A DNA stretch of 49,141 nt, taken from the NCBI GenBank assembly GCA_001604585.1, contig LVBW01000005.1, forward strand, positions 1-49,141, in the 5' to 3' direction. Positions within the stretch are counted from its first letter, which is position 1; each line of letters begins with the position of its first letter. This document shows positions 2,071 to 45,706 of this stretch, one piece after another. Source of the DNA: Puniceicoccales bacterium Verruco_02 (lineage in GTDB: Bacteria; Verrucomicrobiota; Verrucomicrobiia; Opitutales; Oceanipulchritudinaceae). The translations under genes and the position numbers were made by a program. The notes under the pieces are model-generated. The model was not told the origin of the DNA. It saw only the letters and a list, made by a program, of their open reading frames with translations, and did no database searches.

Positions 2071-2883
2071 TCAGGCGTACTGCGGGAGCACCTGCTCTGC
2101 CACGCTCTGGTCAAAGAGGTCGCGGCGGCGCACCCTGTCGAAGGCGTTCATTAGGTCCGCCACCTGTGTACGGGCCTTGCGCACGCCATGAATGTCCTCC
2201 ACCACCTGACCCTTGTGCATCATGATGATGCGCTGGGGCAGTTGAACGGCCTGTTGCATGGAGTGGGTCACCATCAGGGCAGTGAGCTTTTCGCGCTCGA
2301 TTATCTCCTTTGTCAGCGTTGCCACTTGTGCCGCGCTTTTGGGGTCGAGCGCAGCGGTGTGCTCGTCAAGGAGCAGCAACTTGGGCCTTAGCCAGGTCGC
2401 CATTAGGAGCGTGAGGGCCTGTCTCTGCCCGCCCGACAGGCTGCCCATTGCGTTGTCTATGCGGTTTTCGAGGCCCATGTTAAGGGGACGGATTCGCTCG
2501 CGTATTTCCTCGCGCACGCGGCGGTTCAGCGCCATGCCTAGGCCGCGACTCATGCCGCGCCGCATCGAAAGAACGATGTTCTCTGCAATGCTCATCTCGG
2601 CCGCTGTACCCGCGAAGGGGTTCTGGAATACGCGCCCGATCATGGATGCACGGCGGTACTCGGGCCAGTTGCTAATGTCCTGCCCGTCGAGGAGTATCGT
2701 GCCCGAGTCCGGCAGGAAGCTGCCCGCCACGGCATTGAGCGAGGTGCTCTTGCCGCTGCCGTTGGTGCCGATTATGGCCGCAAAGCAGCCCTCTTCGAGC
2801 TTCATGCTGATGCCGCGAAGGGCGCGCACCTCGTTGGGCGTGCCGGGGTTGAAGGTCTTTACGACGTTGTTTATCTCAAGCAT
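2071..2883 (-). CDS. ABC transporter ATPase, TrpZ-like
   Basis: Cytoplasmic ATP-hydrolysing subunit (270 residues) of an importer. Seen: Walker A GTNGSGKST near residue 40, ABC signature LSGGQRQALTL near 150, Walker B LLLLDEHTAALDP, and the switch His in MVTHSMQQA. Within ABC ATPases the sequence looks like the partner of ABC_sub_bind (TrpX-type) importers; TrpXYZ imports tryptophan in some Gram-positives, but substrates of relatives vary. It is the last gene of the operon and overlaps the permease by 8 bases, so the two are almost certainly co-translated. The substrate here is unknown. Confidence 0.9.
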   Translation of the reverse strand: MLEINNVVKTFNPGTPNEVRALRGISMKLEEGCFAAIIGTNGSGKSTSLNAVAGSFLPDSGTILLDGQDISNWPEYRRASMIGRVFQNPFAGTAAEMSIAENIVLSMRRGMSRGLGMALNRRVREEIRERIRPLNMGLENRIDNAMGSLSGGQRQALTLLMATWLRPKLLLLDEHTAALDPKSAAQVATLTKEIIEREKLTALMVTHSMQQAVQLPQRIIMMHKGQVVEDIHGVRKARTQVADLMNAFDRVRRRDLFDQSVAEQVLPQYA

Positions 2884-3820
2884 TGCTGCTTCCTTTCATG
2901 ATTTTCCTGCCGAGCTTGCCCGCCATGTGCGGGATGACTAGCGCGGCGAACACGAAGGCCGCGGTGACGAGCTTGAGGTCGTTCGGATTGAGTCCCCAGC
3001 GCAAGGCTATGGCGATCAATAGACGGAAGAGCACCGTGCCCATCATTGCGCCAATAATCATCATGCCAGGGCTGCGTGCCTTTTTGCCTATTAGTGCCTC
3101 GCCGATGATGATGCTGGCAAGGCCCCATACCATCATGCCTATGCCCATCTGGACGTCGGCAAAGCCCTGATACTGGGCAAGCACTGCGCCGGATAGACCG
3201 ACAAGGCCGTTGGACACAGCAATGCCCCAGACCTGCATCCAGCGGTTGTCCACGCCTTGGGCGCGTATCATCTGCGGGTTTTCGCCCGCAGCGCGGACGG
3301 CGGTGCCGAGGTTTGTGCGCAGGAATATGTTAAGAAGAATGCCTATTGCGGCCACTAGCGCGGCCACTGTGAGCAGCATGGCAAGGTCGCGCACGGGGAC
3401 CGGCCAGCCTAGGACTCCGATTTTGTCCGCCCCGTACATCTTGCGCAGCAGGGCTTCTGCCCAGTCTGAAATGCTGCCGCTGTCGAGCATCGGGACGTTG
3501 CTCTTGCCCATAACGCGCAGGTTGACCGAGTAGAGGGCCGTCATTACGAGAATGCCCGAGAGCAGCTCCTCGATCTTGAAGTGCGTGTGCAGGATGCCCG
3601 TTACAAAGCCCGCCGCCATGCCCGCAGCAAAGCCGCCCAGCGTGGCAGGCCAGGGAGGCACACCAGCTACAAGAAGCACCGCCGTTGCCGAGGCACCAAG
3701 AGTGATGGAGCCGTCCACAGTGATGTCGCAGAAGCGCAGTATGCGGAAGCTTATTAGCACGCCAAGGGCCAGTAGGGACAGTATGAGTCCCATTGTGAAT
3801 GCGCCTACTACCAGTGTCAT
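2876..3820 (-). CDS. ABC transporter permease, TrpY-like
   Basis: Inner-membrane permease, about 314 residues, with 8-10 hydrophobic segments starting at MTLVVGAFTMGLILSLLALG. The pattern ISFRILRFCDITVDGSITLGA is typical of the branched-chain/ribose-type permease superfamily (BPD_transp_2) used with ABC_sub_bind binding proteins. The ATG at 3818-3820 was chosen over a longer upstream frame because it forms an ATGA overlap with the stop of the preceding STAS gene and starts right at the first membrane helix. It works with the ATPase downstream; the quadruple binding protein in the same operon is the obvious ligand donor. Confidence 0.88.
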   Translation of the reverse strand: MTLVVGAFTMGLILSLLALGVLISFRILRFCDITVDGSITLGASATAVLLVAGVPPWPATLGGFAAGMAAGFVTGILHTHFKIEELLSGILVMTALYSVNLRVMGKSNVPMLDSGSISDWAEALLRKMYGADKIGVLGWPVPVRDLAMLLTVAALVAAIGILLNIFLRTNLGTAVRAAGENPQMIRAQGVDNRWMQVWGIAVSNGLVGLSGAVLAQYQGFADVQMGIGMMVWGLASIIIGEALIGKKARSPGMMIIGAMMGTVLFRLLIAIALRWGLNPNDLKLVTAAFVFAALVIPHMAGKLGRKIMKGSSNA

Positions 3821-5067
3821 TTGCGGTTCTCCGTGTGAAAGCTGGCCGGGGCGCACCAGCAGGCGCCGCGGATGAAGCTGCTCTTGCCAAGGCCGAGCGT
3901 CGGGCGCTCGTCTTCGACAAGGTGCAGCATCGCGATTGGTTCTGCGGCGGCAAAGAGCTGCTCGACGCACTCGCTCATGAATATCTCGCCATTGGGAAGA
4001 GGGCGGAAGGGGAATACCACTGCATGGACATGCAGCTTCCAGCCGGGGCGGGATGGAATGGCTGGCAGGCCGGGCTGGCTTTGGCCGCTACCCGAGGCGT
4101 CTGCAAAGCCCACGAGCAGAACCTGCCTGCCATGATGCACTCTTTCGCCGCAGAAGCTCATCCAGTCCCTTACTCCGGGGAATTCATCCGCGTGCTCGCC
4201 TTCGCTTATTAGGCCGGGCGAACGGCTGAGCGTCACTCCGACAAGGCCTCCAGCCTCGGCAATGGCGACGAAGGCGGCCTTGGTGGAGCCTGTGGACGAA
4301 AACACCGCTTCGAGCAGGCGGGGAAGCTCCAGCGATGCCCCGTCATTTTCCGGCGAAAAGCGCAGTAGCTGTGAGAAGCTGCCCACGGCTCGCAAACCGC
4401 TGGCTGCAAGCAGTTCGGGCACGTAGCGGCCTTCCTGCACGAGGTAGTCTGGCGCATCGGCCCCAGTGCCCGGAAGCCAAGCCGTACAACCCGCAGCACT
4501 TGCGTAGTCGCCCATCTGTTCGCGCGCGTTTTGCCATTCGTCCGCGGGGGCGCCGCTGCCAATGGCGATGCAGTCCCTTCCGAGGGCGATTTTGGCACAG
4601 TCTTCCTCGCGGAGCGGTTGCCAAGGGGTCCATTTGCCTGTCGTGTGGACCTCCATGTGTCCATCCTCCTGCTGGGAGTAGCTTTCGATGCGCACTCCGT
4701 TCACGCTCCAGCTTTTGCTCTTGGCGGAGGTGGCTTCCTCGTCCGCCACGGCTTCAGCAGGCGCTTCATCTAGAGCTAGAAGGGTGTCGAAGCCGGACAT
4801 AGACAGCGTGTTGACCACGAAGTCCGATGCTCGGATTACAGCGAAGGAGCCGTTTACCGAGGTCAGTTCGCGGTGGGCGCGCAGGAGCGAGCGCATACCG
4901 GCGGAGCTGAGGTAGCTTAGGCCCAGCGCATCAACGCGGATGTGGTGCCTGCCTTCTCGCATGGCGGCCGACACTGTGGACACGAAGTGCTCGGCCCATG
5001 CGGCGTCCAGCCTTCCTTCCAGTTTCAGCTCTAGGTAGTTGTTTTTATGTGAAGAGGTAATGTTCAT
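3817..5067 (-). CDS. STAS domain protein with unassigned C-terminal domain
   Basis: Residues about 1-100 are a STAS (anti-sigma factor antagonist) domain with the phosphorylatable serine motif LSYLSSAGMRSLL. A linker rich in Ala/Glu (about 100-120) leads to a 290-residue region that I cannot assign to a named family. It contains ALGRDCIAIGSGAP, a segment like CTAWLPGTGADAPDYLV, and near the end several Cys residues (RGACWCAP). No signal peptide or membrane helix, so it is probably cytoplasmic. It sits between the double-STAS gene and the permease and overlaps the permease start (ATGA). By analogy with SpoIIAA/RsbV, the STAS domain should be phosphorylated by an RsbW-like kinase and dephosphorylated by a PP2C, both encoded in one polypeptide upstream in this operon. 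The C-terminal domain is a candidate output or coupling module. Confidence 0.8.
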   Translation of the reverse strand: MNITSSHKNNYLELKLEGRLDAAWAEHFVSTVSAAMREGRHHIRVDALGLSYLSSAGMRSLLRAHRELTSVNGSFAVIRASDFVVNTLSMSGFDTLLALDEAPAEAVADEEATSAKSKSWSVNGVRIESYSQQEDGHMEVHTTGKWTPWQPLREEDCAKIALGRDCIAIGSGAPADEWQNAREQMGDYASAAGCTAWLPGTGADAPDYLVQEGRYVPELLAASGLRAVGSFSQLLRFSPENDGASLELPRLLEAVFSSTGSTKAAFVAIAEAGGLVGVTLSRSPGLISEGEHADEFPGVRDWMSFCGERVHHGRQVLLVGFADASGSGQSQPGLPAIPSRPGWKLHVHAVVFPFRPLPNGEIFMSECVEQLFAAAEPIAMLHLVEDERPTLGLGKSSFIRGACWCAPASFHTENRK

Positions 5068-5101
5068 TGCGGGTGGCGATAGGGCGCCGGAAAGAGAGGA
5101 A

Positions 5102-5752
5102 CTATTTGCTTATTAGCAGGGCGCTGAGGCCGGACATGGCAAGGGCGTCCAGCACGAAGCGCGAGGCGCGGCCAATGTGCATTTTGCCGCCTGCCGCACT
5201 CATGCGGCGTTGGCTCTGGAGCAGGGCACGTATGCCGCCAGAGCTGATGTATTCGATGGCCCCAGTGTCGAACTCCAGTTCGCTGATTCCGCTTTCGGCA
5301 AGCTCGTTCACCTTGGCGGCCACCTTTTCGGCGTCTGCTGCGTCCAGCCTGCCAGCAAGATGCAGCACCGCTTTCTTGCCGCAGCGATCGTCGGACATGG
5401 CCAGCGAAGTGGGGCGGGGCTGCGCCGGGCTTTCGCCTCGAGGGACTGTGCGGCCGGGCGTAATTAGGTTACTGAGGCCGGATAGGGCCAGCGACTGCTG
5501 CACGGCGTAGGATGCGCGGACTATGCGGAAGTGACCGCCAAGGGAGGACATCTTGCGAAGGGACTGAAGCATCGTGCGTATGCCAGCCGAGCTTATGAAG
5601 TCCACATTGTTGGCGTTCACGCGAATGTCGCGGCGTCCTTTGTCGGCCAGTTCGCATACTTTGGCGTAGAGGGTCTCCGCAGATATGGCCTCGATGCGTC
5701 CGTCTATGCCGATTTCACAATAGTCAGCGTTGTCGTTGATAAAGAGGTTCAT
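5102..5752 (-). CDS. tandem double-STAS protein (anti-anti-sigma-like)
   Basis: 216 residues made of two STAS domains (about 1-95 and 122-216) joined by a Pro/Arg-rich linker. Domain 1 carries VDFISSAGIRTML and domain 2 carries IEYISSGGIRALL, each placing a Ser at the position phosphorylated in SpoIIAA. The two share a common C-terminal pattern (RIVRASYAVQQSLALSGL; HIGRASRFVLDALAMSGL), which points to internal duplication. The start overlaps the stop of the quadruple binding protein by ATGA, so translation is coupled. Having two phospho-acceptor sites in one polypeptide would allow graded or cooperative binding to the RsbW-like partner (inference). Confidence 0.88.
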   Translation of the reverse strand: MNLFINDNADYCEIGIDGRIEAISAETLYAKVCELADKGRRDIRVNANNVDFISSAGIRTMLQSLRKMSSLGGHFRIVRASYAVQQSLALSGLSNLITPGRTVPRGESPAQPRPTSLAMSDDRCGKKAVLHLAGRLDAADAEKVAAKVNELAESGISELEFDTGAIEYISSGGIRALLQSQRRMSAAGGKMHIGRASRFVLDALAMSGLSALLISK

Positions 5753-8700
5753 TTGGAGTGGAGTTTGGAGGCGTCTTCACGAGCTCGGCTGGCTATGTCT
5801 TCGGGGACACTGATACCGTACCTGTTCAGAGCTTCGTTGTTTAGGACTAGGTGAAGGGTTTTGGAGTTACTGAAAGGGATTTTGGCCGGGTCTTCGCCGC
5901 GCAATACGCGGATTGCCACTTGGCCAGCTTCGTAGCCTGCGTCGTAGTAGTCGCGCGCCAGTGCAAGCACCGGGCCATAGCGCATCTGGCTTTTCTCAAA
6001 GCAGAATGTGGGTACTTGCTTCTGGTCGGCATGGCGCACTATGGCGGCGAATCCGGGTCGAGTGGTATTGTCCAGTATCTGGCATACTAGGTCTATGTCT
6101 CCACGGCAGAGCGCGGCTGCGGCCTCGCTTGTGTCTGCCGAGCTGTTCACGGGGACGGCAACTAGGCGCATACCCTCGGCGTCGAGAGCCTGGGCGAGCC
6201 AGTCCTTGTATAGGACGCTGTTGATTTCTGCCGGGGTGAAAAGTGTGCCTACCTTTTTTGCGTTGGGCATCAGGCGTCTAATCAGCTTGCTCATGTCTTC
6301 GAAGGGGGAGCGCGTTGTGATGCCTGTCACATTTGGCAGGTGTTCTGTCTCGCTTTTCCCTGCACCGGCCTGCACGCCGTCGCCCACGCTTGTGAACACG
6401 ATCTTTGTGTTGCCCGCCTGTCGTAGAGCGGCCTGAAGGGCCGGAGTGGATATGCACATCAGTAGGTCCACGTTGTCGGCGCTGACGCTGGTCATGATGC
6501 TGGAAAGGGTGCCCATGTCACCCTGTGCGTTCATCATTCGCACTTTGTAGTCCACCCCTTCGCGCATAGTGCTGGCTCGGATGGCGTCCATGAGACCGCG
6601 ATGGCTTTCTTCGACAAATACGGTGTCGTTGTAGGCTACTATGCGTAGTTCCAGAGGCTTGGACGCCAGCGGAGAGGCAGCGGGCGTATGGGCTTCCTGC
6701 CTGCGAACGATGCGCAGCGATTCGGTAGAAAGGGCGCGCGGAGCCTGTTCAAGCATGGGAAGCCCGGCCAGTATCTTTGCACCCATGATGCCCGATTCTA
6801 TGCCCCAGTCCTCATAGCTATGCCCAATGCAGGCGTCGGCTCCCATTTTGACCAGTTCCAGATCGTTGCCAATAATGGGTATGCCCGCCGGGCGCGTGAC
6901 TTTCAGCACGGCGGCGAGCGAGGTGCTCATGAGGTTGTCAGCACTTGTCAGGATTGCCTGCACTTTTGCCGTTTCGAGGGAGCGGGCTGCTTCCGAGAGG
7001 TCCGTAACGCTGGCCACGCCTCGCTCGATAAGGGTTATTCCGTCCTTGGCGCACTCTTCACGCAATTTGTTGTACGCGATGACGGAGTTGATTTCTGCCG
7101 GAGTGTAGATGATGCCAATGCGGCTTAGGCCGGGAAGTTCTGCGCGTGCGAAGTCGAGCAGCTCGCGGATTGGCGGGTCTTCGTAGGATCCGGTGATTAC
7201 GCCACGGGCAACGACATCTGTTATGCCGATGTCTGCGGGGTTGCTGGACACTGTGAACACCGCGGGGCAGGAGAAGCTCTTGCTGGCAAGAATCTGTGCC
7301 GTCGGGGTGCCGACCGTGAATATTAGGTCCACGCCGCTGTTAATGGCAGTGTCGAGCGTCTGCGATATGTTCACGAACTCGCCCTGCGCATTGTAATAGC
7401 GAAGGGTGAAGTCCCGTCCTTCGACAAGGCCGCTTCGTTTGAGGCCGATGAGCAGGCCGCCCTGCGCGGCGTTCAGCGCGGGGTTGTCGGCCATGTTGAC
7501 GATGGCGATTTTCGCAGGTCTGCCGAAGCGTTGCGCGACGTTGTGGAAAATGTTAGCTTCCTTTAGGATGTGATTGGGAATGGTCACTCCGAGGCGTGCC
7601 GCCACCCTGAGGTCCAAAGAGAGGTCAACCTCTTCGGTGGGTGTGAAGGGTATGTTGGCCGGGCTTTCTCCAAGGAGCACACGCGAAATCATGCCTCCGG
7701 CGTAGCGTCCATGCTCGTAAGGGTTGATGCCAACGGAGAGCAGCGCGCCCTGTCCCATGCAGGAATCGTCGTCGGCAAGGAGGGGTATGCCGTTCTTGCG
7801 GCAGGCTTCAGCGATTATTGGCTGTGCGCTTAGAACGGCGTTGTCGGCCTGAAGGAAGAAGGCGTCGAGTTTCTCGGCAAATATGGATGTCAGTGCCTCC
7901 GGCACTTCGTTGGTACTGCTGACGGGGCGCTGCACAAGTTCTACGCCGAGCTTTGCCGTGTATTCCTTGGCCAGTGCCACCTCGGTGCGTGCGTTAGCCT
8001 CGCCGGGGTTGTAGATGACGCCCATCTTTTTTATGCCGGGGAATAGCTCCTGCATTATCTGAAAGCCTCGCTCCATAGGTGCGGGCCAGACGGCGCCGGT
8101 GACGTTGGGCAAGTGATCTTCAAAGCTCTTTCCCGCGCCTGCGCCGACCGGCTCAGTAACGTCGGCAAATACCACGTTCTTTTCCTTTACCTGCGCGGCC
8201 ACGGCGGCGAGGCAGGGCGTGGAAAGGGGCACTATGACATCCAGATCCGAGTGAGCCATGTTGCTCACTGTCTGCTGTAGTATGGACATGTCGCCATTGG
8301 CGTGCGCCAAGGTGTAGCGTATGTTGCGCCCCTCGATGTAGCCGATCTCGGCAAGGGCCTCCTTTATGCCGCGTATGTTCTCGTCAAATATGGCGTGTGG
8401 AGCGTAGTATAGGATGCCCACCTTGTACATGCGGCCAGGTTCGGGCTTTTTCGCCTTGGGGCCTTCTTCCGCCTTTGCAACGCTTGCCGCGGCCTTGAGT
8501 CGGGTTTCGTTGTCCAGAGACCAGTGCGAGGAGAAGGTTTGCAGCGCCTTTTCGTTGATTACGAGCCTTTCGGGCACAACGTTGTCCACGCGCATCTGCC
8601 TTGCGTCAGCCCCCTTGAGCAGCGAGCAGGCCATGCGGGCAACCGTCAGGCCTACCTCCCTGTAAGATGCGCCAAGGGCGAATATAGCGCCGCTGGCAGC

Positions 8701-9510
8701 GTCGCCCGGGTCGTTGGTAAACACGGCTATGCCGGACTGGCGACAGGTGTCTATGATGTTGGAGTTGGCGGCGTTGACAACCGTGTCCCCGCCAATCCAT
8801 ACCGCGTCAACGCCTCTTGTAAGGACAGCGCGCAGGGCCTCCGGCACCTCGCTGGAGTTGTTCGCGTTGGCTTCAAAGAGTTGTATGCCAAGCTTTAGGC
8901 AGATTTCTCGCGCTTTTAGCACGCAGGCCTCCGAGTTGTGTTCTCCGGGGTTCCAGATAGTGCCTACACGCTTCATATCTGGGTACATGCGCTTGGCGAT
9001 TATGAAGGCGTTCTCCACGGGCTGGAAGGTGCCAACGCCGACAAGGTGGGGCGGGTGTTGGTCAGGGGCCGGTCCGCTGATGTTGACTCCGGAGCCGTAG
9101 GGGTCTGTGACAGCGCCGAACACGTGCGGGACTTTGCGCTCCTTGTTGGCTGCTGCGACGGATTGCAGGGTGGGGGTGCCAGAGGTTATTATCATGTCGT
9201 AGCCGCCGCTCACGAGGTCGTCGGCCATGGCCTTGGCCGTTGTGTAGTCTCCCGACGCGTTGAAGCAGCGTATGTGGGCCGTCTGCGGGTCGTGGTAGCC
9301 GCCCTCGCGAAGGCCTTCCAGTATGCCCTTAACGGTGTCGTCGAGCACTCTGGTGGAGGTAATCTGCATTATTGCGATACGTGGCCTGTCGTTGGAGCCG
9401 CGTTTGCCCACAGCACTGTTGCGGTGGTCGAGGTCCGAGAGCAGGAGCGTGCCCGAACTAAGGGCGATGAGCAGGAGGCCAAGCCATGTCTGCTTGATGA
9501 AGCGTAGCAT
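5749..9510 (-). CDS. protein with four tandem ABC_sub_bind (TrpX-type) domains
   Basis: 1253 residues: an N-terminal signal or signal-anchor helix (about 9-25, no lipobox), then four periplasmic-binding domains of the ABC_sub_bind family at about 44-335, 361-648, 667-935 and 953-1245. Each repeats the family's landmarks: GxxxGLxxxG near its start, an S/G-TP motif (GTPTLQSVA, STPCLAAVA, GTPTAQILA, STPALQAAL), PN/GxxxxG-I-NPGE or TPAE before the second lobe, and a closing IPF-type segment. Usual members have one domain and about 320 residues, so this is a fourfold concatemer. It is presumably periplasmic, tethered to the inner membrane. It may feed the TrpY/TrpZ-type transporter or present ligand to the phosphatase receptor encoded upstream. 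A single unbroken frame makes assembly artefact unlikely. Confidence 0.9.
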   Translation of the reverse strand: MLRFIKQTWLGLLLIALSSGTLLLSDLDHRNSAVGKRGSNDRPRIAIMQITSTRVLDDTVKGILEGLREGGYHDPQTAHIRCFNASGDYTTAKAMADDLVSGGYDMIITSGTPTLQSVAAANKERKVPHVFGAVTDPYGSGVNISGPAPDQHPPHLVGVGTFQPVENAFIIAKRMYPDMKRVGTIWNPGEHNSEACVLKAREICLKLGIQLFEANANNSSEVPEALRAVLTRGVDAVWIGGDTVVNAANSNIIDTCRQSGIAVFTNDPGDAASGAIFALGASYREVGLTVARMACSLLKGADARQMRVDNVVPERLVINEKALQTFSSHWSLDNETRLKAAASVAKAEEGPKAKKPEPGRMYKVGILYYAPHAIFDENIRGIKEALAEIGYIEGRNIRYTLAHANGDMSILQQTVSNMAHSDLDVIVPLSTPCLAAVAAQVKEKNVVFADVTEPVGAGAGKSFEDHLPNVTGAVWPAPMERGFQIMQELFPGIKKMGVIYNPGEANARTEVALAKEYTAKLGVELVQRPVSSTNEVPEALTSIFAEKLDAFFLQADNAVLSAQPIIAEACRKNGIPLLADDDSCMGQGALLSVGINPYEHGRYAGGMISRVLLGESPANIPFTPTEEVDLSLDLRVAARLGVTIPNHILKEANIFHNVAQRFGRPAKIAIVNMADNPALNAAQGGLLIGLKRSGLVEGRDFTLRYYNAQGEFVNISQTLDTAINSGVDLIFTVGTPTAQILASKSFSCPAVFTVSSNPADIGITDVVARGVITGSYEDPPIRELLDFARAELPGLSRIGIIYTPAEINSVIAYNKLREECAKDGITLIERGVASVTDLSEAARSLETAKVQAILTSADNLMSTSLAAVLKVTRPAGIPIIGNDLELVKMGADACIGHSYEDWGIESGIMGAKILAGLPMLEQAPRALSTESLRIVRRQEAHTPAASPLASKPLELRIVAYNDTVFVEESHRGLMDAIRASTMREGVDYKVRMMNAQGDMGTLSSIMTSVSADNVDLLMCISTPALQAALRQAGNTKIVFTSVGDGVQAGAGKSETEHLPNVTGITTRSPFEDMSKLIRRLMPNAKKVGTLFTPAEINSVLYKDWLAQALDAEGMRLVAVPVNSSADTSEAAAALCRGDIDLVCQILDNTTRPGFAAIVRHADQKQVPTFCFEKSQMRYGPVLALARDYYDAGYEAGQVAIRVLRGEDPAKIPFSNSKTLHLVLNNEALNRYGISVPEDIASRAREDASKLHSK

Positions 9511-9558
9511 GTGAATAAGGGGGGCGTTGGGTTAAAATAAGGTGCCGCAGCGGCGGCG

Positions 9559-11925
9559 TCAGAACTTCTTGGCGAGGGTGAGTATGTTGCGGTTGCGTTC
9601 CCTGCGGTAGTGCATCAGGTCCATCGTCTTGCGTATGAAGTGGATGCCTAGGCCGCCTATGCGTCTGTGTTCAAGGGGGGCGTCGGTGTCGGGAGCGAGC
9701 TGTGCGCAGGGGTCGAAGGGCTGGCCCTCGTCCTCGATCTGTATGAGTATCGTGTTGTCATCCCTCCACATGCGGATGGGGATGCGGTGCAGGTTGTGAT
9801 CTACGAAGGCGTAGGACACGATGTTGATGAACCACTCTTCGAGGGCTAGGTTGAGCGCCATTACGGTGTGCGCCGGTATGCCCAGCTTTTCGCCCTCGCC
9901 TTCGAGCCATTCGACGAGGTTGTTCAGCTCTTCGCGCTTGTTGTTCAGCTCAATTGTGGAATCTGCTTGTCGGGATGGAGGCTGTGGAGCCTCGATTGCG
10001 CGGCAGGTCGTGCTACGCACAGCCAGCATCGTGATATCGTCGGATTGTTCAAAGCCGTCTGCGTGCGCGGTCACCGCGCCCACGATTGTACGAATAAGCT
10101 GTTGTGTGTTCGCCTTGGGGTTGGCGGCTGCTACGGCGGCCATTCGGTCTTCGGCAAAGAGTTCTCCCTTTGCGTTCATGGCCTCGGTAACGCCGTCGGT
10201 GTAGAGCAGGAGCAGCTCGCCGTTTTCCAGCTCCACGTCCATGTTCTGGTAGCGCACCGAGCACATGGCGCCAAGTGCCGGGCCGGGGCGGCGTGTGAGA
10301 AAGCGTGTGTCTCCGCTCTGGCTTATGATGAGCGGAGGGTTGTGCCCGGCGTTGGCAAAGGTAAGTTGCCCGGTGCGCAGGTTGAGTATTCCGCAGAAGG
10401 CTGTGATGAACATGCAGCTTTCGTTGTCGGCGGATAGTTCGTCGTTCACCATCGTCATGGCGCGGGCGGGGTCTCGCACGGCCTGTATGGTGCTCTTTAG
10501 CAGGGTCTTGCCAACTGCCATGAGCAGCGAGGCCGGGACGCCCTTGCCGGACACGTCGCCAATTGCTACGTAGAGATGGTCCTCGTCGAGCAGGGTGAAG
10601 TCGTATAGGTCTCCGCCCACTTCGCGCGCCGGTTCCAGCGTTGCAAAGAGGTCCAGATCCCCCCTTTCGGGGAAGGGCGGGAAGAGCTTGGGCACTATCC
10701 CGAGTTGTATCTGATGGGCGATAGCCAGCTCGCTTGCTATCTTTTCCTTGGCCGCCGTGGTGGTGGTCAGTTCCTCGATGTAGCTGTGCAGCTCTTCCCT
10801 CATGCGGGCAAAGCTGCTTGTAAGGCGGCCGATCTCGTCGTTGTGGCGAACCTTGGGCAGGGGGGCGTCGAAGTCGCCCGTTGCTAGGCGGCCCGCCGCG
10901 CCAGCAAGTTCGTGCAAGGGGCGGGTAAGGGAGAAGGCCACGGCCAGAGCCGCCCCAAGGAGCAGCACCATGCCGGAAAGCCCGATCAAGAGGTTCAGCG
11001 TGTTCTGGCGGCGTAGCGGGGCAAGTATCTGCTGCTCGGGTATGGTGACGCTACACGCCCAGCCTGTGGCTGGCACGGTGCGGTAGTAAACATATGACGG
11101 AGTGTCCTTGGGGCTGCGGCGGTAGAGGGACATGCCTGCCTCGCCGGAGAGCATTTTGCGCGATAGAGCGATCAGCGACTCTAGGGGCTTGCCAACATCT
11201 CCCATGGATTCGGCCACGCTGTAAACAGTTTCGCGCATTTCAAAGGCGCGGATGGGGTGGGAGATGTAAACGCCCTGAGCGGATACTAGTGTTGCTATCC
11301 CGGCCTCTCCAAGGTCGAGCGAGTCGAGCATTTCGCGTATGCCTTCGAGCGACAGTTCACAGGTAACTACCCCGATTATCGTTCCGTCGGCGCCCTTCAC
11401 GGGGACGCTGTAAGTGACACTGCTGCGGCCGCTAGTATGGTCGAAATAGGGTTCCACCCACACGTTTCTCCCAAGGTGCGTGGGCAGGTAATACCAGTCT
11501 TCGATTTGGTGACTCTGGGAGCGAGGCGCAACGCGGGTTCTGACTGTGCCGTTGTCGCGGTAGGCGGATATGACGCCCGGTGCCCAGTCCGTTGTGCCGT
11601 GTACGGCGGCTATGCTTATGCCGTTTATTTCCGGACTTTTGCGCATTAGGTCAGCCAGCAGTTTTTCCGCGTCTTGGGCGGTGGGAAGCCCCTTTTTCAT
11701 ACATACGGAAACGCTGTTGGCTGTGCTGACTACGCGGCCCAGAAGGGCGTCGATACGGTTGACAGCGGCAAGGGTAAGGCTGTCGCCTTGCTGCTGCTGC
11801 TGTTTTACAAGCTGGCGCTGTTGCGCGATGGTGCTGGATACAAGCACGGCAGCAAGGACGAGTCCTGCTCCGCCAAGAATTAGTATGGCGAGCCGCCACA
11901 CGAGGCTTTTAGCGGGATTCCACAT
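9559..11925 (-). CDS. dCache-HAMP receptor with PP2C phosphatase and RsbW-like ATPase
   Basis: 788 residues. Order: TM1 (about 10-32), periplasmic double-Cache-like region (33-305) with DWYYLP and GVVTCELSL, TM2 (about 310-333), HAMP (334-388), short coiled coil (389-408), SpoIIE/RsbU-type PP2C domain (about 425-638), and an HATPase_c2 domain (about 655-788). PP2C metal ligands are visible in GGDLYDF (Asp439), GDVSGKG (Asp457), YTDGVTE (Asp577) and QSDDITM. The ATPase shows LALEEWFINIVSYAF (N box), EDEGQPFDP and GGLGIHFIR (G boxes). An opposing STAS-P phosphatase and STAS serine kinase or anti-sigma domain therefore sit in one transmembrane sensor. It overlaps the upstream binding-protein gene by 17 bases. 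The STAS proteins of the operon are the likely substrates (family knowledge plus context). Confidence 0.92.
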   Translation of the reverse strand: MWNPAKSLVWRLAILILGGAGLVLAAVLVSSTIAQQRQLVKQQQQQGDSLTLAAVNRIDALLGRVVSTANSVSVCMKKGLPTAQDAEKLLADLMRKSPEINGISIAAVHGTTDWAPGVISAYRDNGTVRTRVAPRSQSHQIEDWYYLPTHLGRNVWVEPYFDHTSGRSSVTYSVPVKGADGTIIGVVTCELSLEGIREMLDSLDLGEAGIATLVSAQGVYISHPIRAFEMRETVYSVAESMGDVGKPLESLIALSRKMLSGEAGMSLYRRSPKDTPSYVYYRTVPATGWACSVTIPEQQILAPLRRQNTLNLLIGLSGMVLLLGAALAVAFSLTRPLHELAGAAGRLATGDFDAPLPKVRHNDEIGRLTSSFARMREELHSYIEELTTTTAAKEKIASELAIAHQIQLGIVPKLFPPFPERGDLDLFATLEPAREVGGDLYDFTLLDEDHLYVAIGDVSGKGVPASLLMAVGKTLLKSTIQAVRDPARAMTMVNDELSADNESCMFITAFCGILNLRTGQLTFANAGHNPPLIISQSGDTRFLTRRPGPALGAMCSVRYQNMDVELENGELLLLYTDGVTEAMNAKGELFAEDRMAAVAAANPKANTQQLIRTIVGAVTAHADGFEQSDDITMLAVRSTTCRAIEAPQPPSRQADSTIELNNKREELNNLVEWLEGEGEKLGIPAHTVMALNLALEEWFINIVSYAFVDHNLHRIPIRMWRDDNTILIQIEDEGQPFDPCAQLAPDTDAPLEHRRIGGLGIHFIRKTMDLMHYRRERNRNILTLAKKF

Positions 11926-12928
11926 CTGCTGCTTCCTCCATTATTATAAAGCTGTCATACGCGGGGACGCTTTTGAGCGATCCGTGGCGGAGCAGAATTC
12001 TGCTCGCGCGTTCGTACTGGCGTTTGTTCAGTTTGCCAAAGGTCCAGGAATCTTCGGTTGGCGGAAATATCGACTCCAGTATGACGTTGAGCATCCAGCT
12101 CATATGGGGGCGGTTGGTGGGCAACTTGGCCTCGTTGACCCGCTGCATCACGCTGTCCAGCGTTTCCTCGCGGTAGTCGCGGGCGTATTCCCAGCCTCGC
12201 AGTGTCGCCCTTACAAAGGCGCGGCATAGGGCGGGGTTCTCGCGCAGGAACTCTTCGGTGGTGTATATGCCGTCTTCTGGCAAGTCCACGCCGTACTGCC
12301 AGAGGGGGAACACGGTGATGTCTTCTTCCTGCACACCGTGCTGGAGCAGCCAGTGATACTCATTGTAGTGCATCGTGGCGCAGGCGTCCACGCCCCTGTT
12401 CATGAACAGGGACAGCGTGTAATATTGGGGCACCAGTTTGGGGCTTGCACCAGTGCTTTCAAAAAATGCCTCGTAGGGTAGGCGGAAGTCCTCTTCCCAT
12501 ACCGTCACCTTGCGTCCGCTTAGCTGGTCGGGTCTTTGGATTACAACGCCTTTGACAGCGTCGGGCTTTTTCCATGCCACCACCTGAAAGTTACAGCGGT
12601 TTACTACTTGCGCTATGCCGACCATCGGGAGGCCCAATGCGCGTTTCTCGATGGCTGTGGAGAGCATGGATACGCAGAACTCCGCTCCACCTTCGGCCAC
12701 TGTTTCGCAGCTGCGCACGTCCGGCCCGCCGCGGATGATGCTGACATCCAGCCCTTCCTCGGCGTAAAAGCCCTTGTCCAGAGCCATGTAGTAGCCTGCG
12801 AACTGGGACTGGTGATCCCAGTGCATGACTAGGCGAAGGGGCCTCGGCGTGGCTGTGTCGGCCGCTTTTACGCTGATGCATGGCAGAATTAGTGCCGTGG
12901 TTACGGACAGGAGCATTCGCAATTTCAT
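11909..12928 (-). CDS. NMT1/THI5-like periplasmic substrate-binding protein
   Basis: 339 residues with a signal peptide (MKLRMLLSVTTALILPCISVKA, cleavage probably after VKA). The mature part begins PLRLVMHWDHQSQFAGYYMALDKGFYAEEGLDVSI, the hallmark start of NMT1/THI5-type binding proteins (thiamine-precursor, nitrate, sulfonate or pyrimidine ligands). No cognate permease of that ABC class is nearby. Its neighbours are instead the STAS gene and the phosphatase receptor, with a 17-base overlap to the latter. A role as soluble ligand-sensing partner of the dCache receptor is therefore plausible (inference). The ligand cannot be read from sequence. Confidence 0.87.
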   Translation of the reverse strand: MKLRMLLSVTTALILPCISVKAADTATPRPLRLVMHWDHQSQFAGYYMALDKGFYAEEGLDVSIIRGGPDVRSCETVAEGGAEFCVSMLSTAIEKRALGLPMVGIAQVVNRCNFQVVAWKKPDAVKGVVIQRPDQLSGRKVTVWEEDFRLPYEAFFESTGASPKLVPQYYTLSLFMNRGVDACATMHYNEYHWLLQHGVQEEDITVFPLWQYGVDLPEDGIYTTEEFLRENPALCRAFVRATLRGWEYARDYREETLDSVMQRVNEAKLPTNRPHMSWMLNVILESIFPPTEDSWTFGKLNKRQYERASRILLRHGSLKSVPAYDSFIIMEEAADVESR

Positions 12929-12988
12929 ACCTTGCCTTGGGAAGATGCGGGCAGTCGGGAGTGGTTGGGAGGTAGGGCGAGCGCCCTT

Positions 12989-13318
12989 TTACGGGAGCTG
13001 CTGGCAGACGCCCAGACAGGCGTCCAGACCGCATTCAGCCAAGACCTTTCCAACGATTGGCGAAGGGCTGAGGACGGCAAAGGCCCCGCCCGGCTGACGG
13101 CCTGCCGTGCGTGCGGCAAGGAGGAGGGCTCGGATTCCGGCGCTACTTATGTAGGCAATGCCGGAAGCTTCTATGGCGAGTTTTGGGCTTTCGCGGGTGA
13201 TTTCTGCAAGCATGGCGTCTTGTGCCGTGTCGCAGCTAAGGGCGTCTAGCCTGCCGCTGAGCGTCAGGATTCTCCAGCCCTTGTCCTCGCCGGTGTGTAT
13301 TTGCAGGGAATTTGACAT
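12989..13318 (-). CDS. single STAS domain protein (anti-sigma factor antagonist family)
   Basis: A compact STAS domain, 109 residues from the ATG at 13318, with the acceptor motif GIAYISSAGIRALLL and the C-terminal pattern VGKVLAECGLD. The ATG gives the usual family length. An alternative TTG at 13378 adds 20 residues (MTSIALPALDPSTPPLLPKD) and would place a run of nine C inside the coding frame. First gene of the operon; 60 bases separate it from the binding-protein gene. Expected to be a substrate of the kinase and phosphatase domains encoded two genes downstream. Confidence 0.85.
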   Translation of the reverse strand: MSNSLQIHTGEDKGWRILTLSGRLDALSCDTAQDAMLAEITRESPKLAIEASGIAYISSAGIRALLLAARTAGRQPGGAFAVLSPSPIVGKVLAECGLDACLGVCQQLP

Positions 13319-18319: not shown

Positions 18320-18949
18320 ATGGGCGCAGTTGCTGAACAGGGCGAAAAGGGGCTGAAGGGATATGTCGTAAGCGCGCTTATCGCAGTGATGGCAGGGGCC
18401 AGCGCGGCATTCCTTACGCTCATTACACAGGCCGTTCCGCAGTCGGGTGTCAGCGCAGATCCGGCGCAGCCTGCCTATGCAATACATGCGGGAGCCGGTT
18501 CTGGGCGATCCGATGCCTTGCGCGAAGCCGACAGGGTGCTTGCCGGGGAGCCGGGGCGCTATGCTTTTAGCGAGGGCGACATCAATCAGGTTCTTCGCGC
18601 ATGGCTCAAGCCTCGCGAGCCGGACTCAGCAATGTTCGACCTCAAGGAGTCTCCCAATGTCCATATCGCGGGCGATGGCACCTTGAGTGCATTCCTGCGC
18701 CTGCCTTCTCCCCGCAGTGGCAAGGACAGCGTTTACGTGTATCAGGTCAGGGGGCGGGTCGAGAGGCGGGGCTTCAGCCCCAACATGGGCTGGATGGGTC
18801 GTAGTCCGGTGCCGTTTCTCAATTCTCTACTAATCGCAAAGATAGCCAAGTGTTACGACATGGGCGATAGGGCCGAGGCCATATCGAAATTGTCCAAGAC
18901 GGCACGTTTTTCATTGGAAGCTGGCTTTCTGATCGTGGATATTGAATAG
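18320..18949 (+). CDS. hypothetical membrane-anchored protein
   Basis: About 209 residues. A single N-terminal membrane helix (VVSALIAVMAGASAAFLTLITQAV) is followed by a soluble domain rich in charged residues, with GRYAFSEGDINQVLRAWLKP and PSPRSGKDSVYVYQVRGRVERRGFSPN. The ATG at 18320 sits 7 bases after GGGGAGG, better than the GTG at 18314. The soluble part is probably periplasmic. It precedes the autotransporter gene but is separated by a hairpin-rich 150-base gap. Family not recognised. Confidence 0.7.
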   Translation: MGAVAEQGEKGLKGYVVSALIAVMAGASAAFLTLITQAVPQSGVSADPAQPAYAIHAGAGSGRSDALREADRVLAGEPGRYAFSEGDINQVLRAWLKPREPDSAMFDLKESPNVHIAGDGTLSAFLRLPSPRSGKDSVYVYQVRGRVERRGFSPNMGWMGRSPVPFLNSLLIAKIAKCYDMGDRAEAISKLSKTARFSLEAGFLIVDIE

Positions 18950-18980
18950 CGTGTTGGAGGCTCTGTAACGTTTCCGCACC

Positions 18981-19072
18981 TTACAGGCTTGTAAGTCGTT
19001 ATGGGGCCAGACATAGTCTGGCGTTCGATGATTTTCGAAATGGGTTATCCCATGCCGCTTTATCCGTGCGGC
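18981..19072 (+). promoter_or_regulatory. cluster of four short inverted repeats upstream of the autotransporter
   Basis: Four perfect small dyads follow one another: TTACA-GGCT-TGTAA (18981-18994), GCCAGAC-ATA-GTCTGGC (19006-19022), ATGGG-TTAT-CCCAT (19040-19053) and GCCGC-9 nt-GCGGC (19054-19072). None has a T tract, so they are not standard terminators. They lie just before the likely start codon at 19102 and could shape the leader of the autotransporter mRNA. Confidence 0.4.
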
Positions 19073-19101
19073 GCTCCCATGAACATCTCCACGTTAAACA
19101 C

Positions 19102-22100
19102 ATGAAGAATCGCAAGATACGAACCGGGGCAAGCTGTGCCCTCTCTTCTTGGCCCATGCTTTCGCGTGGCTCCTCCAAGGGGCTTTTCTTTGGTCTAGCT
19201 ACAGGCCTCGTTTGCGGCGCAGCGTTCGCAGCCGACCTGCCACCGTTCGCAGCCACCGGAGATGAGACGATAGTGTACTCGCTTGAATACCCAGGTGCTG
19301 GTCAGGCTGGGGATGCCACTAGCACAATCACGGGCGAGAACAACGAAGTCACGATTTCGGCGCTCGGCAAGCTGAGCATGGCCGACGGCTACACGGCAGT
19401 CGAAATGGGAAGCGAAGCCTTTGTCGCAAACAACAGTGTGCTGCAAGTATCGGGCGGAATAAGCGGCTCCAACGCCGATGCCGTCCGAGTTCTCAATGGC
19501 TCCGGCAACTGGGTGCTCGTAGGTGATACGGGAAGCATCGATGTGCAAGGCTCTGGTTCTGCAATCAGGTTGAGCACGGACCTGGAGGGGTACGTACTGA
19601 ACGTTGGTTCCATTACAACAGAGAGCGGCAATGCCATCCAGGTCGATGGCGACTCATCGTTCGCCCTGTTAAACTACCTCGAGGGGACTATCACTACACA
19701 GGCCGACGGGATTCATATCGACGGAGTCAACAACGGCGCAATCGTCAGCAATGGCTTAATAGATGCTGGAGGGACGGGCATCAGCATCGCCGCTGGTAAC
19801 TCCGGCAACGTTAGAATAGCCACGGGATTTTTTGATTTGGAGGCCAGAATCATTGCCGGAGAGGACGGCATACGTATTGGTGACGAATCCTACCGGCAAA
19901 ACGGAGCTTACAACTCCGGGTTGATACTGGTCGATGCAGATGCCAGTATCGAGGCAGGCAGAAACGGAGTACTGGTCGTAGGCGAGAACAGGGAGACTGG
20001 CGTTATCGCAAACGCAGGCAGGATCGAGGCAGAAGGTATCGGACTCTACCTTGCAGGGCGGAACGACGGGGGCACCATCCGCAACGATGGTTCCATCAGC
20101 AACGGAAATGTCTCGATTGCCAACACTGGTGGAAATGCGGGGCTTATCGTAAATAACGGCAGCATGGACAATGTCATGATTGGCATTGCGACTGTGGGCG
20201 AGAACAGCGGCACTGTCAGCAATTCCGAAACAGGGTCCATTCACGCCGGGTTTGTGGGTATTTACGCTATTTCCCAAGGCTCCGATCCCGCTAATACGGG
20301 CGTTTTGGAAAACCTCGGCAGGATAGACTCCGATGGGTACGGGATAATTTCCACCAACGCGAGCGGAGGCTACGTCGGCAACAGGGCTTCGGGAGTACTA
20401 AATGCACAGTCTATAGGGATGCTTGTCGATGAGAATCAGGGCGTTTTCGAGAATGCTGGTGCGATAAGTTCCGGCTGGCACGCCATGTATGTAAGCGGAA
20501 GCAACACTGGTCTAGTCCGCAACACAGGATCCCTCGCGTCAGTTGCAAGCGAGGGGATGTTGGTTTCCAGTGGTAACTCAGGCCACGTCATGAACATTGG
20601 CACGATAGGCTCCGAATCCCAGAGCGTGGGCGGCGGAGGCATAATAGTGGTTGATTACAACAGCGGCGTGATTTCCAACCTCTCTTACGAAGGAGGCAGC
20701 GCAAGCATCCACTCGGTGGGCGACGGCATCCAGGTTTACGGGGACCACTCCGGGCTTATCGAGAACGAGGGCGAGATTTACACGCAGAGCACTGGCATAC
20801 GCGTCACTGGAAACATGTTCGGCAGCTATACCGCAGATGATGGCCAGAGGCAGTATCCTGCCGCAATCACCAACAGCGGGCTTATCGACGCAGTAGGCGA
20901 TGGCATACGAGTCGACGGCAACATAGAGCTGGAGGATTCGCACCCCGTCATCGTCAACAGCGGCACCATTCTCTCTGCAAGTGGCGACGGAATATACGTC
21001 GGAGGCGACAGTGTGGCATCCATCAGCAACGAGGGCTACATCGGGATAAGCCATACGGGGGAATACACATTTGCTGGCGACAACGGCATTCAAATTGTCG
21101 GCACCAACAACGGCTCAATCATCAATGAGCAGGGCGCGCTCATCCAGTCGGTTGGAGACGGTATCTTGATTGGCGAGACCTTCCTTGCCGGTGCAGGCGA
21201 AGACCCGGATCGCGAGGCCGTGTACTCCGACAACGCTTCGCAAATCATCAATCGCGGAAGCATCGTGTCGCAGGATGGGCACGGCATTTCGATAACTGGC
21301 AACACGGCCAGCTTCTCCGATGTTACCCCGCTGCCTGAACCCTCTGTTGCGTCCATCTTCCGCTTGGCCATGACGATCAATCAGGGGGAGATTACTTCGG
21401 CCCTTGACGGTATGCACATCGGTGGCGACAACGATGGCTATACCCGTAACCTCGGCAGCATTATCTCCACTTCTGGTAACGGCATGTTCGTCGGTGGCAA
21501 CAATTCCGGCCTGTTGGCAAACGACGGGGGTATCAGCGCCGACATCAGCGGTATTGTGGTGGAAGGCGACAACGTCGGTTATGGCAGGATCGTCAACAGC
21601 GGCAGCATCTATGCAGAGCTTGGCACGGGCATCGTTCTTGGTGGAAACAACGAGAGCAGCATCACGAACGGCAACTACGAGATTACTGATGCCTTGATCA
21701 GTGCCCAAGTCGGTATCGAGATAGGCGGAGACAATACTGGCTCTATCGTCAATTACGCGCTCATCGACACCCGATATGAAGGCATTCTTGTCGATGGTGC
21801 CAACTCTGGCAATATTCTCAATGCCGAGGGCGCCTCAATAAGCTCACGCCGAGGCTCTGCCATATCCGTTGGAGGCAACGATCTTGAAGGCAATTCCGGC
21901 AGCATCATCAATGCAGGCAGCATCGAAACCCGCTTAGATGGTATTTCTGTCTATGGCGAGAATTCCGGCGACATCATCAACGAAGTTACCGGAACTATCT
22001 CGTCTCGCTTCCCCGGCATATCGGTTTTTTCTGGGGACAATACAGGCAGAATCGAGAACAAGGGCACGATCAATACCGATATAATGGCCGGGATTTACCT

Positions 22101-25100
22101 TTCCGATAGCAATTCCGGCGAGATATTCAACTACGTGACAGGCGTAATAGATAGCGAGAACGGGGCAGGCATCCTCATCGAGGGGAACAATTCGGCCTCC
22201 GGCATGATAGTCAACCTTGGCTCCATCACAGCGGGGCAGACCTCCATTCCGGGCAACGGCATTTCAATATCCGGGGACAACGCCGGGTTGATCATGAACG
22301 GTCAACTGATGTTCGTTGTAATGTCGTTAGAGGATGACTCTAGTGATGAAGTGCTTCCAGCGGCTTCGATTACAGCCTCCAACGACGGTATATTGGTGGA
22401 AGGCGACAACAGAGGTATCATCGTAAACCTTGGCGAGATCGTGGCTGGCGCCAGCGGCATTCATGTCCTTGGAGACTCTTTTGGCATACAGAACAGTGGC
22501 GTCATAACTTCCGTTGGCGCGGGCATATCCGTGGCTGGCGATTCGGCCATATTGGTCGTAGATGGCCGCATTACGACCACTGGAGAGTACGCAAACGGCA
22601 TTGAAGTCGGCGCCAATGCAAGAATGCTCATAAGCCAAGGTGATATTACCTCTACCGGTCACGGCATATTCATTGGAGGCGATGTCACAGAGGAATTCAT
22701 AGTCTCCGGCATCATCAACGCTGGGTCGGATGGCGAAGCGGCAAGCGGCCTTTACGTATCGGGTAATTCGGACAGCATACTTTCTTTGGGAAGCATTGAA
22801 GCCACTGGCTACGGCATTTACGCAGGCGCTGTGACGACGGACCTACTCAGTTATGGTTCCATCACCTCCACTTTGGACGCAATACATATCGAGGGCGATA
22901 TCGGATCGATCCTTGAACTTGATGGCATCATAGATAGCGGTGCCTTTGGCGTGAACATAACTGGTTCAGTCGGTAAGCTCAGTAATGACGGTGGCATAAA
23001 CAACTACGGCCAGATAAGCGGAGTTGACGGCGGAATCACCGTTCACGGTGATGTCAATGGCATAATCCTCAACTCCGGCAGCATCAGTGCCTCCGGGGCG
23101 ATGGGCGAAGGTCTCACTGTTTACGGCTCCGTTGATGGCATGATCCTCAACACCGGTACCATTAGTGCCGGTATGGTAGGTATCGGCGTCGCAGGCGATG
23201 TCAACGGCGACATTGTCAACCGCGGTACTATAAGCACCGAATATGGCGCTGGCATCGAGGTTCTGGGCAATGTCGGCCTTATCGCAAATAGCGGCACGAT
23301 CAACAGTAACTATGGCATCGTAGTCATGGGTGGGGAAGACTGCACGATCATCAATTCGGGCACCATCGAGTCCACCCAGTATCATTCACTTGGCATCGGT
23401 ACCGTGCATGGTGCCGAGATTATAAACACAGGCACTATCAGTGTGACTGGTGAAGACTCCATCGGCATATTCATGCTTGGAGATTCTCAGGTGTTTGCCA
23501 ACGCGGGTTCACTAATCTCGAATGGTTTGGCAATCAGGGCAAACGGGGCTTCCTCGGTCTATATGGGTGTAATTGAGACCAGTGACGGCGTCAAAATGGC
23601 GTCGGTCCAGGGCGACATGTGTTCATTCGGATCAAGCAGCCGTATCGTGTTCGGCGTGGATCTTGCCGGGATGCGCTTTGACAACGAGCTGCTCGGTAAC
23701 GGCCTGTTTGTCATGAACTACAATGACGTCATCGAGAACTTTGAAGCCGAGTTTCTCGGCGGGACAACGAACTTTGGCGGGACGCGTCCAAACATGCTTC
23801 GCTCCTCTGTTATTCGTGCCGGAGCCACTCTCAACGTCAACAACACAACGGTATTTGTCAGTAGTGGTGACGCACCAGCGCTGCTTATAGAGGGCAAGCT
23901 GGGCGGTTCCGGGCAAGTATCCTTGCTTAACGAGGATAACAGTCCCGGCACGATCGTGAATAACGGCACCTTTGCGCCCGGAAACTCCATTGGCAGCGCA
24001 GTTATCGAAGGCAACTTCGTCTCCAACGGAGTGCTGGAAATCGAGATTGCCCCGGTGGCAGGGGGAGTTGGCACTCCCGGAGTCAGCAATGACCACCTGA
24101 CTGTTGCAAGCCCGATTGAGGGGCAGACGGTCAACCTCGTGTTCGGGTCTGGCGCATCAATCAGTTTCATAGGCGATCCTGTATCGGCAGAGTTCCTCCC
24201 CGGCAGCACCTACAACATTATTTCATTGCAGAACGCCACGCTCAAGGTCGAGGGAGATAGCAGCACATATAGCCTGATCGCGCACACGGACAATCTTGAG
24301 CATTACAGCTTCTATGTGGTTGGAGATGCGGCCAGCACTTCGGCAGTGAAGAATGTGTATGCCATTGCGGCCCGCGACCACGACTACGGGCTATTCGCCC
24401 GCACGGCCAATCAGAAGTCTGTGGGTGCGTATCTAAGCCAGTTCAGGGACAGTTCCACGCTCTCGGCGCTGCGCTTCGGCCTTGATACGACAGCGGGTAA
24501 CGCGAACTTGAACAGGGCGCTGGATCTAGTCAGTGGCGATATCTATCCCACGATGGTAGCCGTCGAGGCCAATCGCGTGTCTGCCCTTGCTGGCAAAGTT
24601 GCCATCTTGGCGCGTCCTTCAAGCTCGGCCACAGCCGAAGAGTCCGGTGCCCGCAAGGCTTGGCGTTCCTTCGCACAGATGGATACTTCCGGCGCTGATG
24701 CCACTGGCGACGACGCATCTGGGCTGAGGTTCAAGAACTACGGAGTCCTTGCAGGTGCTGGTCGCGCATTCGGCAACGGCATTGAAGTGGGTGGCTTTGT
24801 CGGCATGAGCAAGGGCAAGATCGATAACGATCATCCTGACCGGGTAGAATCCGATAATCAGGACCTTGGCCTGTATCTATCCAGCAGCAACAAGGGCGAC
24901 TACTACATAGCGATGCTGTCATACGGGGCTTCCCAGTATGATGTGCGTCGTCGTGCGGCCAGTTCCGTAATGAACTCCGCGCTTGTGCGTGGCGATGTCT
25001 TCACCGAGGCGGAAACGGATGCCAGTTACTGGAGTGCGTATGCCGAAAAGGGGTGGGTGGTCGTGAAAGGTGATGACACGATACATGCCTTCATGGCCCT

Positions 25101-37090: not shown

Positions 37091-37266
37091 AATCTAAAAG
37101 TCCTTATGGGTTGTTCGCATGGCGCTGGAATAAGTCATCCGTCTTGAATTCAAAGGACTTATCGGCGACTGGCAAGCCATGTTAATCAATGAAGGCTTTT
37201 CTTGTCGTAATTTCCTTCCAAGGAGCATTATCACGGGCGCATGAGGGACGATATCTTGCCTTCGTT

Positions 37267-38106: not shown

Positions 38107-38159
38107 TTTGGTCTATGTCCGCGCGAGGGGGTGCATGGTTCCCGCGCCTTGCCCTTTAC

Positions 38160-38555: not shown

Positions 38556-38654
38556 GCTATGGGCATGACGGGGTGCATATCAAGTCAATTTCATCCCGCT
38601 CGAAATGCTGGAGGCATGTTGCTGCTTTCTTGGTGCATAGGATCACGGGTACAC

Positions 38655-38693: not shown

Positions 38694-38696
38694 ATT

Positions 38697-38772: not shown

Positions 38773-38786
38773 ACTTGAAGGAGCCG

Positions 38787-38945: not shown

Positions 38946-38959
38946 TCTAATTGCGCCAG

Positions 38960-45704: not shown

Positions 45705-45706
45705 GG

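Follow-up and report, generated by a model that had tools for sequence, protein, structure and literature searches.

What may a partner switch control when it is encoded together with a nutrient importer? Partner switching is known mainly for freeing sigma factors, and partner switches with non-sigma outputs exist. The question is raised by a run of eight genes on the minus strand (positions 2071-13318) of a 49,141-nucleotide stretch of Puniceicoccales bacterium Verruco_02, called here the window, which is one 49-kb contig (LVBW01000005.1) of a 2.7-Mb draft genome. In order of transcription the run encodes a STAS protein, an NMT1-type binding protein, a membrane sensor with phosphatase and kinase domains, a protein of four TrpX domains, a double STAS protein, a STAS protein with a large C-terminal domain (STAS-CTD), a TrpY-type permease and a TrpZ-type ATPase of the ATP-binding cassette (ABC) kind (open reading frames (ORFs), Pfam). 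The eight minus-strand ORFs with all these domains but the C-terminal one, and the four STAS domains in three proteins, had been listed in a preliminary description made from the letters alone, and the ORF list, Pfam and NCBIfam bear both out. It was also right that none of the eight ORFs is a sigma factor or DNA-binding gene (Pfam); the sigma-factor output that a classical partner switch has encoded alongside is thus missing from the run. The answer developed here, to which we give about an even chance, is that the sensor sets the phosphorylation of STAS-CTD, which in turn would gate the importer TrpYZ, with the STAS subunit MlaB as a precedent.

Conservation of the importer with a STAS protein

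The importer half of the run corresponds to a TrpXYZ importer, with a TrpX-type protein, a BPD_transp_2 permease and an ABC ATPase encoded together; summed over the four domains, the NCBIfam TrpX model gives 639.8 bits against a cut-off of 390. A profile of STAS-CTD was compared with 388 sampled genomes of the phylum and the window genome (389 in total), where an ABC_sub_bind match was taken as strong at E 1e-35 or better and as tandem when two or more domains lay in one ORF. Strong STAS-CTD occurs in 13 of the 389 genomes and tandem TrpX in exactly those 13, and the seven genomes with single-domain strong TrpX only have no STAS-CTD (0/7). In 19 linked loci STAS-CTD stands together with TrpX, TrpY and TrpZ, so that a STAS gene is encoded with transporter genes as for MlaB. 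No STAS gene was found in plain TrpXYZ operons of the same order and of Desulfotignum (L031, L032, L050, L054). The preliminary description had offered two options, that the switch regulates the transporter or that its output lies elsewhere, and this tie of STAS-CTD to tandem TrpX and TrpYZ favours the first. The plain gene order is interrupted by an insertion in G411 and by a contig break in G408, and it is rearranged in a locus of a Delongbacteria metagenome-assembled genome (MAG), where STAS-CTD is followed by a single-ORF permease-TrpX-TrpX fusion (L070:1085-4009). Because the permease is fused there with two TrpX domains after STAS-CTD, these domains are tied to the TrpY permease.

In twelve phylum genomes the TrpX/STAS-CTD/TrpY/TrpZ set is present, either whole or as the part left by a contig end; G281, one of the twelve, is the genome of locus L044. 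Full clusters of sensor and importer are present in the window, G001, G010, G281 (= L044) and L045; the cluster of G002 is partial at a contig end, and in the Lentisphaerae MAG L077 the importer is divergent. Details vary: G001, of the same genus, has two STAS genes at the front of the cluster, and G010, of another genus, has the kinase as a separate gene and its TrpX domains split 2+1, while the Lentisphaerae MAGs L044 and L045 keep the gene order of the window. Co-occurrence in other genomes, which had been named beforehand as the check on the combination, is thus clearly found in other genera and classes. Because other genomes keep the arrangement, the cluster is a conserved system and no chance neighbourhood. 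Upstream of the cluster the same two Lentisphaerae encode a fusion of STAS with GPP34, a Golgi phosphoprotein 3-like domain (L044:2296-3450, L045:1545-2612), identified in L044 by Pfam (2.6e-44) and in L045 by sequence likeness.

The STAS serine and the C-terminal domain

The position of the SpoIIAA phospho-serine (Ser58) is occupied by serine in 99 of 99 aligned STAS domains, namely 21/21 of STAS-CTD and 78/78 others, all four of the window included. Ser55 of STAS-CTD is invariant in all 19 linked copies, and the STAS model is closest to the RsbV and SpoIIAA types.

The large C-terminal domain (CTD) has no Pfam match, and its profile gave chance matches only against the sequences of the Protein Data Bank (PDB); at the level of sequence it stands outside the acetolactate decarboxylase (ALDC) family. 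It was modelled alone with AlphaFold2 (AF2) and six sequences, with two of five models poor; the CTD model has a pLDDT of 82.4 and a pTM of 0.86. All seven Foldseek matches below 0.001 are acetolactate decarboxylases or PTD012. The VIA-align comparison agrees in overall fold: the ten best entries are ALDC or PTD012 (Z 13-17), with Z 16.6, root-mean-square deviation (rmsd) 3.0 and 199 residues against the decarboxylase and Z 13.2 and 234 residues against PTD012, followed by PPC/AF0104-type proteins at Z 6.4-8.3 and a drop to unrelated entries at 3.3 and below. The predicted fold of the CTD is therefore that of acetolactate decarboxylase/PTD012. Folds of this type often hold a metal via an HxH motif and a third histidine. 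In the CTD, H346, H348 and H382 (HxH...H) are invariant in 19/19 linked proteins and make up a putative metal site; a metal and a small molecule are probable ligands of the domain. From its sequence the CTD had been considered as a degenerate PP2C or a FIST-like domain, and both were rejected: Pfam gave no match, and neither fold is among the matches shown for the model.

The sensor and its binding protein

The sensor has two transmembrane (TM) segments, and the catalytic motifs of both its enzymes are intact in the sequence: the acidic motifs of the PP2C phosphatase at residues 437, 456, 575 and 628, and the N box and glycine box motifs of the kinase at 693, 731 and 757. A PP2C-kinase relative is Rv1364c (3ke6), and the NCBIfam SiaA model matches the sensor at 1e-26, far below the cut-off of that model. 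Taken together, the signalling parts appear to add up to a PP2C/kinase/STAS switch that is complete, has an input of the nutrient type and lacks an output to transcription. The genome has two further pairs, in each of which a small STAS gene adjoins that of a PP2C-HATPase protein (G000:C100, L203:7453-9576; G000:C53, L204:7096-9034); one of these two PP2C-HATPase proteins carries a receiver domain. A protein of about four predicted TM segments with a C-terminal STAS domain (G000:C10, L170:8272-9342), also encoded outside the run, may be a further switch partner.

When public genomes were scanned with an alignment of the NMT1 protein, 327 relatives were found, and the best 80 of them were used; they range over Verrucomicrobia, Lentisphaerae, Kiritimatiellae, Desulfobacterota, Firmicutes, Gammaproteobacteria, Cyanobacteria, Bacteroidales and others. 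The loci were picked by the NMT1 gene, so the neighbouring gene is unselected. Among all loci, a Cache receptor gene directly follows the NMT1 gene in 97 of 100 cases, in many phyla; as to the other three, the end of the locus cuts one short, and the remaining two are long fusions (NMT1-PAS-GGDEF in one of them). As the neighbour was unselected and is still a Cache receptor in nearly every case, the simplest reading is that the NMT1-type protein serves as an input subunit for Cache receptors. The outputs of these receptors are PP2C in 79 cases (17 with a fused kinase), and the rest include a chemoreceptor domain, a nucleotide cyclase and a histidine kinase. At L060, L066, L120, L185, L189 and L085 NMT1 is paired with cyclase, histidine kinase or chemoreceptor Cache receptors, or fused to PAS-GGDEF. 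The variety of outputs suggests a general, apparently undescribed input unit of binding protein and Cache receptor. The closest solved relatives of the NMT1 protein are pyrimidine/thiamine-precursor proteins of the thiamine pathway, which is a hint only. A main role as a second binding protein of TrpY was rejected, as the relatives adjoin Cache receptors, usually without TrpX: TrpX lies within 9 kb of only 13 of 100 NMT1 genes.

The binding domains of the importer

The TrpX domains were compared with the Tyr-, Phe- and Trp-binding structures of PMC6816091. In the window the general ligand motifs are largely kept, and the selectivity positions (equivalents of Glu263/Tyr279 of CD0873) read D/Y, D/P, D/Y and E/Y in domains 1-4. 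Several of the signatures that mark a single domain are found in the same place in distant relatives; D/P in domain 2 is common to the window, G002, L044, L045 and G193. This suggests that several specificities are maintained among the domains, as in GlnPQ (PMC8025302). The importer probably takes up amino acids, and the pocket would differ from one TrpX domain to the next.

A proposed phospho-regulated importer and its alternatives

MlaB is a STAS subunit required for MlaF to join or stay in MlaFEDB, and its regulation by phosphorylation has been called an open question (PMC7367683). Such known STAS subunits of ABC transporters, the tie of NMT1 to Cache sensors and the large extra domain of the third STAS protein had been overlooked in the preliminary description. 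From the parts, catalytic motifs, phospho-sites and linkages seen in the sequence we infer interactions, phosphorylation, a direction of control and ligands in the following way. The NMT1-type protein would capture its ligand and dock on, or feed, the periplasmic dCache domain of the sensor, shifting the balance between the PP2C phosphatase and the RsbW-like kinase of the same polypeptide. On this balance would depend whether the conserved serine of each of the four STAS domains is phosphorylated. In one phospho-state, STAS-CTD would bind TrpY/TrpZ through its STAS domain, as MlaB does MlaF, and set activity or assembly; STAS-CTD is put in the place of a gating subunit because it is always present with the importer and because of the MlaB precedent. 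The single and double STAS proteins may compete as kinase substrates or partners. The importer would then take up ligands caught by the membrane-anchored tandem TrpX protein, and the CTD may let a cytoplasmic pool feed back. In the wider form of the proposal, held with somewhat less assurance than an even chance, the locus would represent an undescribed class of importers, having a dedicated STAS subunit, reversible serine phosphorylation and a metal-binding, decarboxylase-like sensor domain, and joining signals from outside and inside the cell.

Regulation of the importer by the switch is favoured by an enrichment of the close NMT1 gene, which is found in 8 of the 13 STAS-CTD genomes, spread over seven families, and in 21 of the 376 others (one-sided Fisher p 3.5e-7), in tests that ignore relatedness and incomplete genomes and use thresholds set after the tables had been seen. 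The five STAS-CTD genomes without it all have strong RsbW-like kinase genes, that of G338 about 6 kb from STAS-CTD. Other observations weigh against such regulation. In those five genomes a different kinase, if any, must act. Seven STAS-CTD-like loci (L163-L169) lack transporter neighbours and have a diverged CTD end, hence the pair of STAS and CTD has other uses. The fold match of the CTD, too, is no demonstration of function.

The main rival, which we consider rather unlikely, sends the output of the switch elsewhere, to an anti-factor, a cyclase, chemotaxis or a sigma factor; transporter and binders would be co-transcribed as part of the same nutrient response, and STAS-CTD would be a signalling output protein. 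It is favoured by the wide occurrence of the STAS/NMT1/PP2C module without TrpXYZ, as judged from the few NMT1 genes with TrpX nearby, by the stand-alone STAS-CTD-like genes, and by the two further PP2C-HATPase/STAS pairs and the membrane STAS protein of the genome. However, it leaves unexplained why STAS-CTD stands beside TrpY and is strong only in tandem-TrpX genomes, and why there are STAS-CTD importer operons with no sensor nearby. The same operons speak for what is chiefly an assembly or metabolic subunit, in which phosphorylation would have no role: STAS would serve the ATPase as a constitutive scaffold, and the CTD would be a metal enzyme that uses the imported substrate. The predicted fold with its three invariant histidines fits this as well. 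Against it stand the phospho-serine kept in every linked copy and the fact that the fullest clusters include a kinase/phosphatase gene in the run, and such a subunit is judged quite improbable. Hardly more credit is given to control in the opposite direction, in which the importer reports to the sensor, like trigger transporters: the state of transport, passed on by STAS-CTD on TrpYZ, would shift the balance of kinase and phosphatase. The gene linkage would be the same, the CTD could sense the imported product, and tandem binding domains would broaden the input, but the sensor already has an input in its own binding protein and Cache domain, which are linked almost without exception, and the run encodes no downstream output. 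That a signalling and a transporter operon lie side by side by chance, as a weak terminator-like hairpin between the two halves might suggest, is highly improbable and is refuted by the same arrangement in other genera and classes.

Features of the run and its surroundings

The features are collected in Table 1. Starts and stops had been described as overlapping, which is right for four junctions, and three are gaps: in order of transcription the distances are +60, -17, +48, -4, +34, -4 and -8 nt (with the permease ATG at 3820). Hairpins like that at 9557-9544 are no commoner than in shuffled sequence, and promoter-like sites are few and weak. No riboswitch or T-box was found for the cluster, Rfam on the window giving two tRNAs only, and a defence system was rejected, as PADLOC gave generic ATPase matches only.

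Table 1. Coordinates of the gene run and its parts in the window
Feature	Position	Strand	Support
Single STAS protein, 109 aa, first gene of the run, phospho-site motif ISSAG	12989-13318	minus	Pfam STAS_2 2.9e-9
NMT1/THI5-type periplasmic binding protein with signal peptide	11909-12928	minus	Pfam NMT1 2.7e-36
Sensor TM-dCache-TM-HAMP-PP2C-RsbW/SpoIIAB-like kinase, 788 aa	9559-11925	minus	Pfam SpoIIE 3.2e-51, HATPase_c_2 5.4e-20
Weak terminator-like hairpin at the boundary of sensor and transporter halves, doubtful significance	9544-9557	minus	
Four fused TrpX-type (ABC_sub_bind) domains with N-terminal membrane anchor	5749-9510	minus	ABC_sub_bind E 3e-195; NCBIfam TrpX 7.2e-193
TrpX domain 1	9378-8536	minus	
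TrpX domain 2	8424-7552	minus	
TrpX domain 3	7512-6754	minus	
TrpX domain 4	6609-5776	minus	
Double STAS protein, 216 aa	5102-5752	minus	Pfam STAS_2, two stretches, 6e-24
STAS-CTD protein, 416 aa: STAS domain (Ser55) and C-terminal domain of ~300 aa	3817-5067	minus	Pfam for STAS
CTD of STAS-CTD, modelled residues 116-416	3820-4722	minus	Predicted acetolactate decarboxylase/PTD012 fold
TrpY-type permease (BPD_transp_2), ATG 3820, 4-nt overlap with STAS-CTD stop codon	2876-3820	minus	Pfam 5.9e-31
TrpZ-type ABC ATPase	2071-2883	minus	Pfam ABC_tran 2.2e-27

Further along the window a 2180-residue ORF with a C-terminal autotransporter beta-domain is located at 18946-25485. A motility and chemotaxis region at 35724-48328 contains an HDOD protein, CheD and a chemoreceptor (Pfam), and flagellar-like reading frames at about 38951-43922 were recognised by eye only.

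Comparison with known systems

No description of NMT1 or TrpX with SpoIIE/STAS was found in the literature searched, which covers few subscription journals, nor was there one of the combination of importer and switch, of the STAS-CTD protein or of the NMT1-Cache pairing. The single parts have known relatives in SiaABC (PMC7647112), MlaB (PMC7367683) and the tandem binding domains of GlnPQ. What the comparison defines is an unnamed STAS-linked domain with a decarboxylase-like predicted fold and an apparently undescribed sensory unit, in which a stand-alone NMT1-type protein is combined with varied Cache receptors in many phyla. If the proposal is true, nutrient sensing may switch an importer itself on or off instead of a gene programme. 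With importer, STAS subunit, kinase and phosphatase conserved side by side, the question of phosphorylation raised by MlaB becomes directly testable.

The signalling half resembles RsbU/RsbW/RsbV and SpoIIE/SpoIIAB/SpoIIAA in its PP2C, its HATPase kinase and its STAS substrates with a conserved serine. It differs from them in that the window run has no sigma factor, kinase and phosphatase are fused behind Cache-HAMP, and the target of STAS is apparently a transporter. SiaABCD of Pseudomonas aeruginosa (PMC7647112) shares the PP2C phosphatase sensor, the non-sigma output and the link to carbon supply, whereas its kinase SiaB is separate, it is coupled to the diguanylate cyclase SiaD, and neither a binding protein nor an ABC importer is described there. 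The transporter half has the TrpX domains, TrpY permease family and TrpZ ATPase of the TrpXYZ/CD0873-type amino-acid importers (PMC6816091, PMC9382623); those have a single TrpX, in contrast to the two to four fused domains with altered selectivity positions and the STAS-CTD gene between TrpX and TrpY found here. In GlnPQ (PMC8025302), too, several binding domains of different specificities serve one translocator, to which the fusion of L070 may be compared, but the families of binding domain and permease are others and no STAS protein or partner switch is described. The CTD shares with acetolactate decarboxylase/PTD012 the predicted fold and an HxH motif with a third histidine, and departs from them in an identity of 8-14%, in the position of that histidine 34 residues past HxH and in its fusion to STAS. 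MlaFEDB (PMC7367683) is alike in that its ABC ATPase and permease have a STAS protein of their own, whose residue at the SpoIIAA phospho-site is Ser/Thr. Mla, however, is a phospholipid transporter that works with an MCE protein and has a permease of another family, and MlaB is a lone STAS domain without a known kinase or phosphatase; the window run has no MCE gene, its permease is BPD_transp_2, and it combines a TrpXYZ-type importer with a large extra domain on the STAS protein and a PP2C/kinase sensor.

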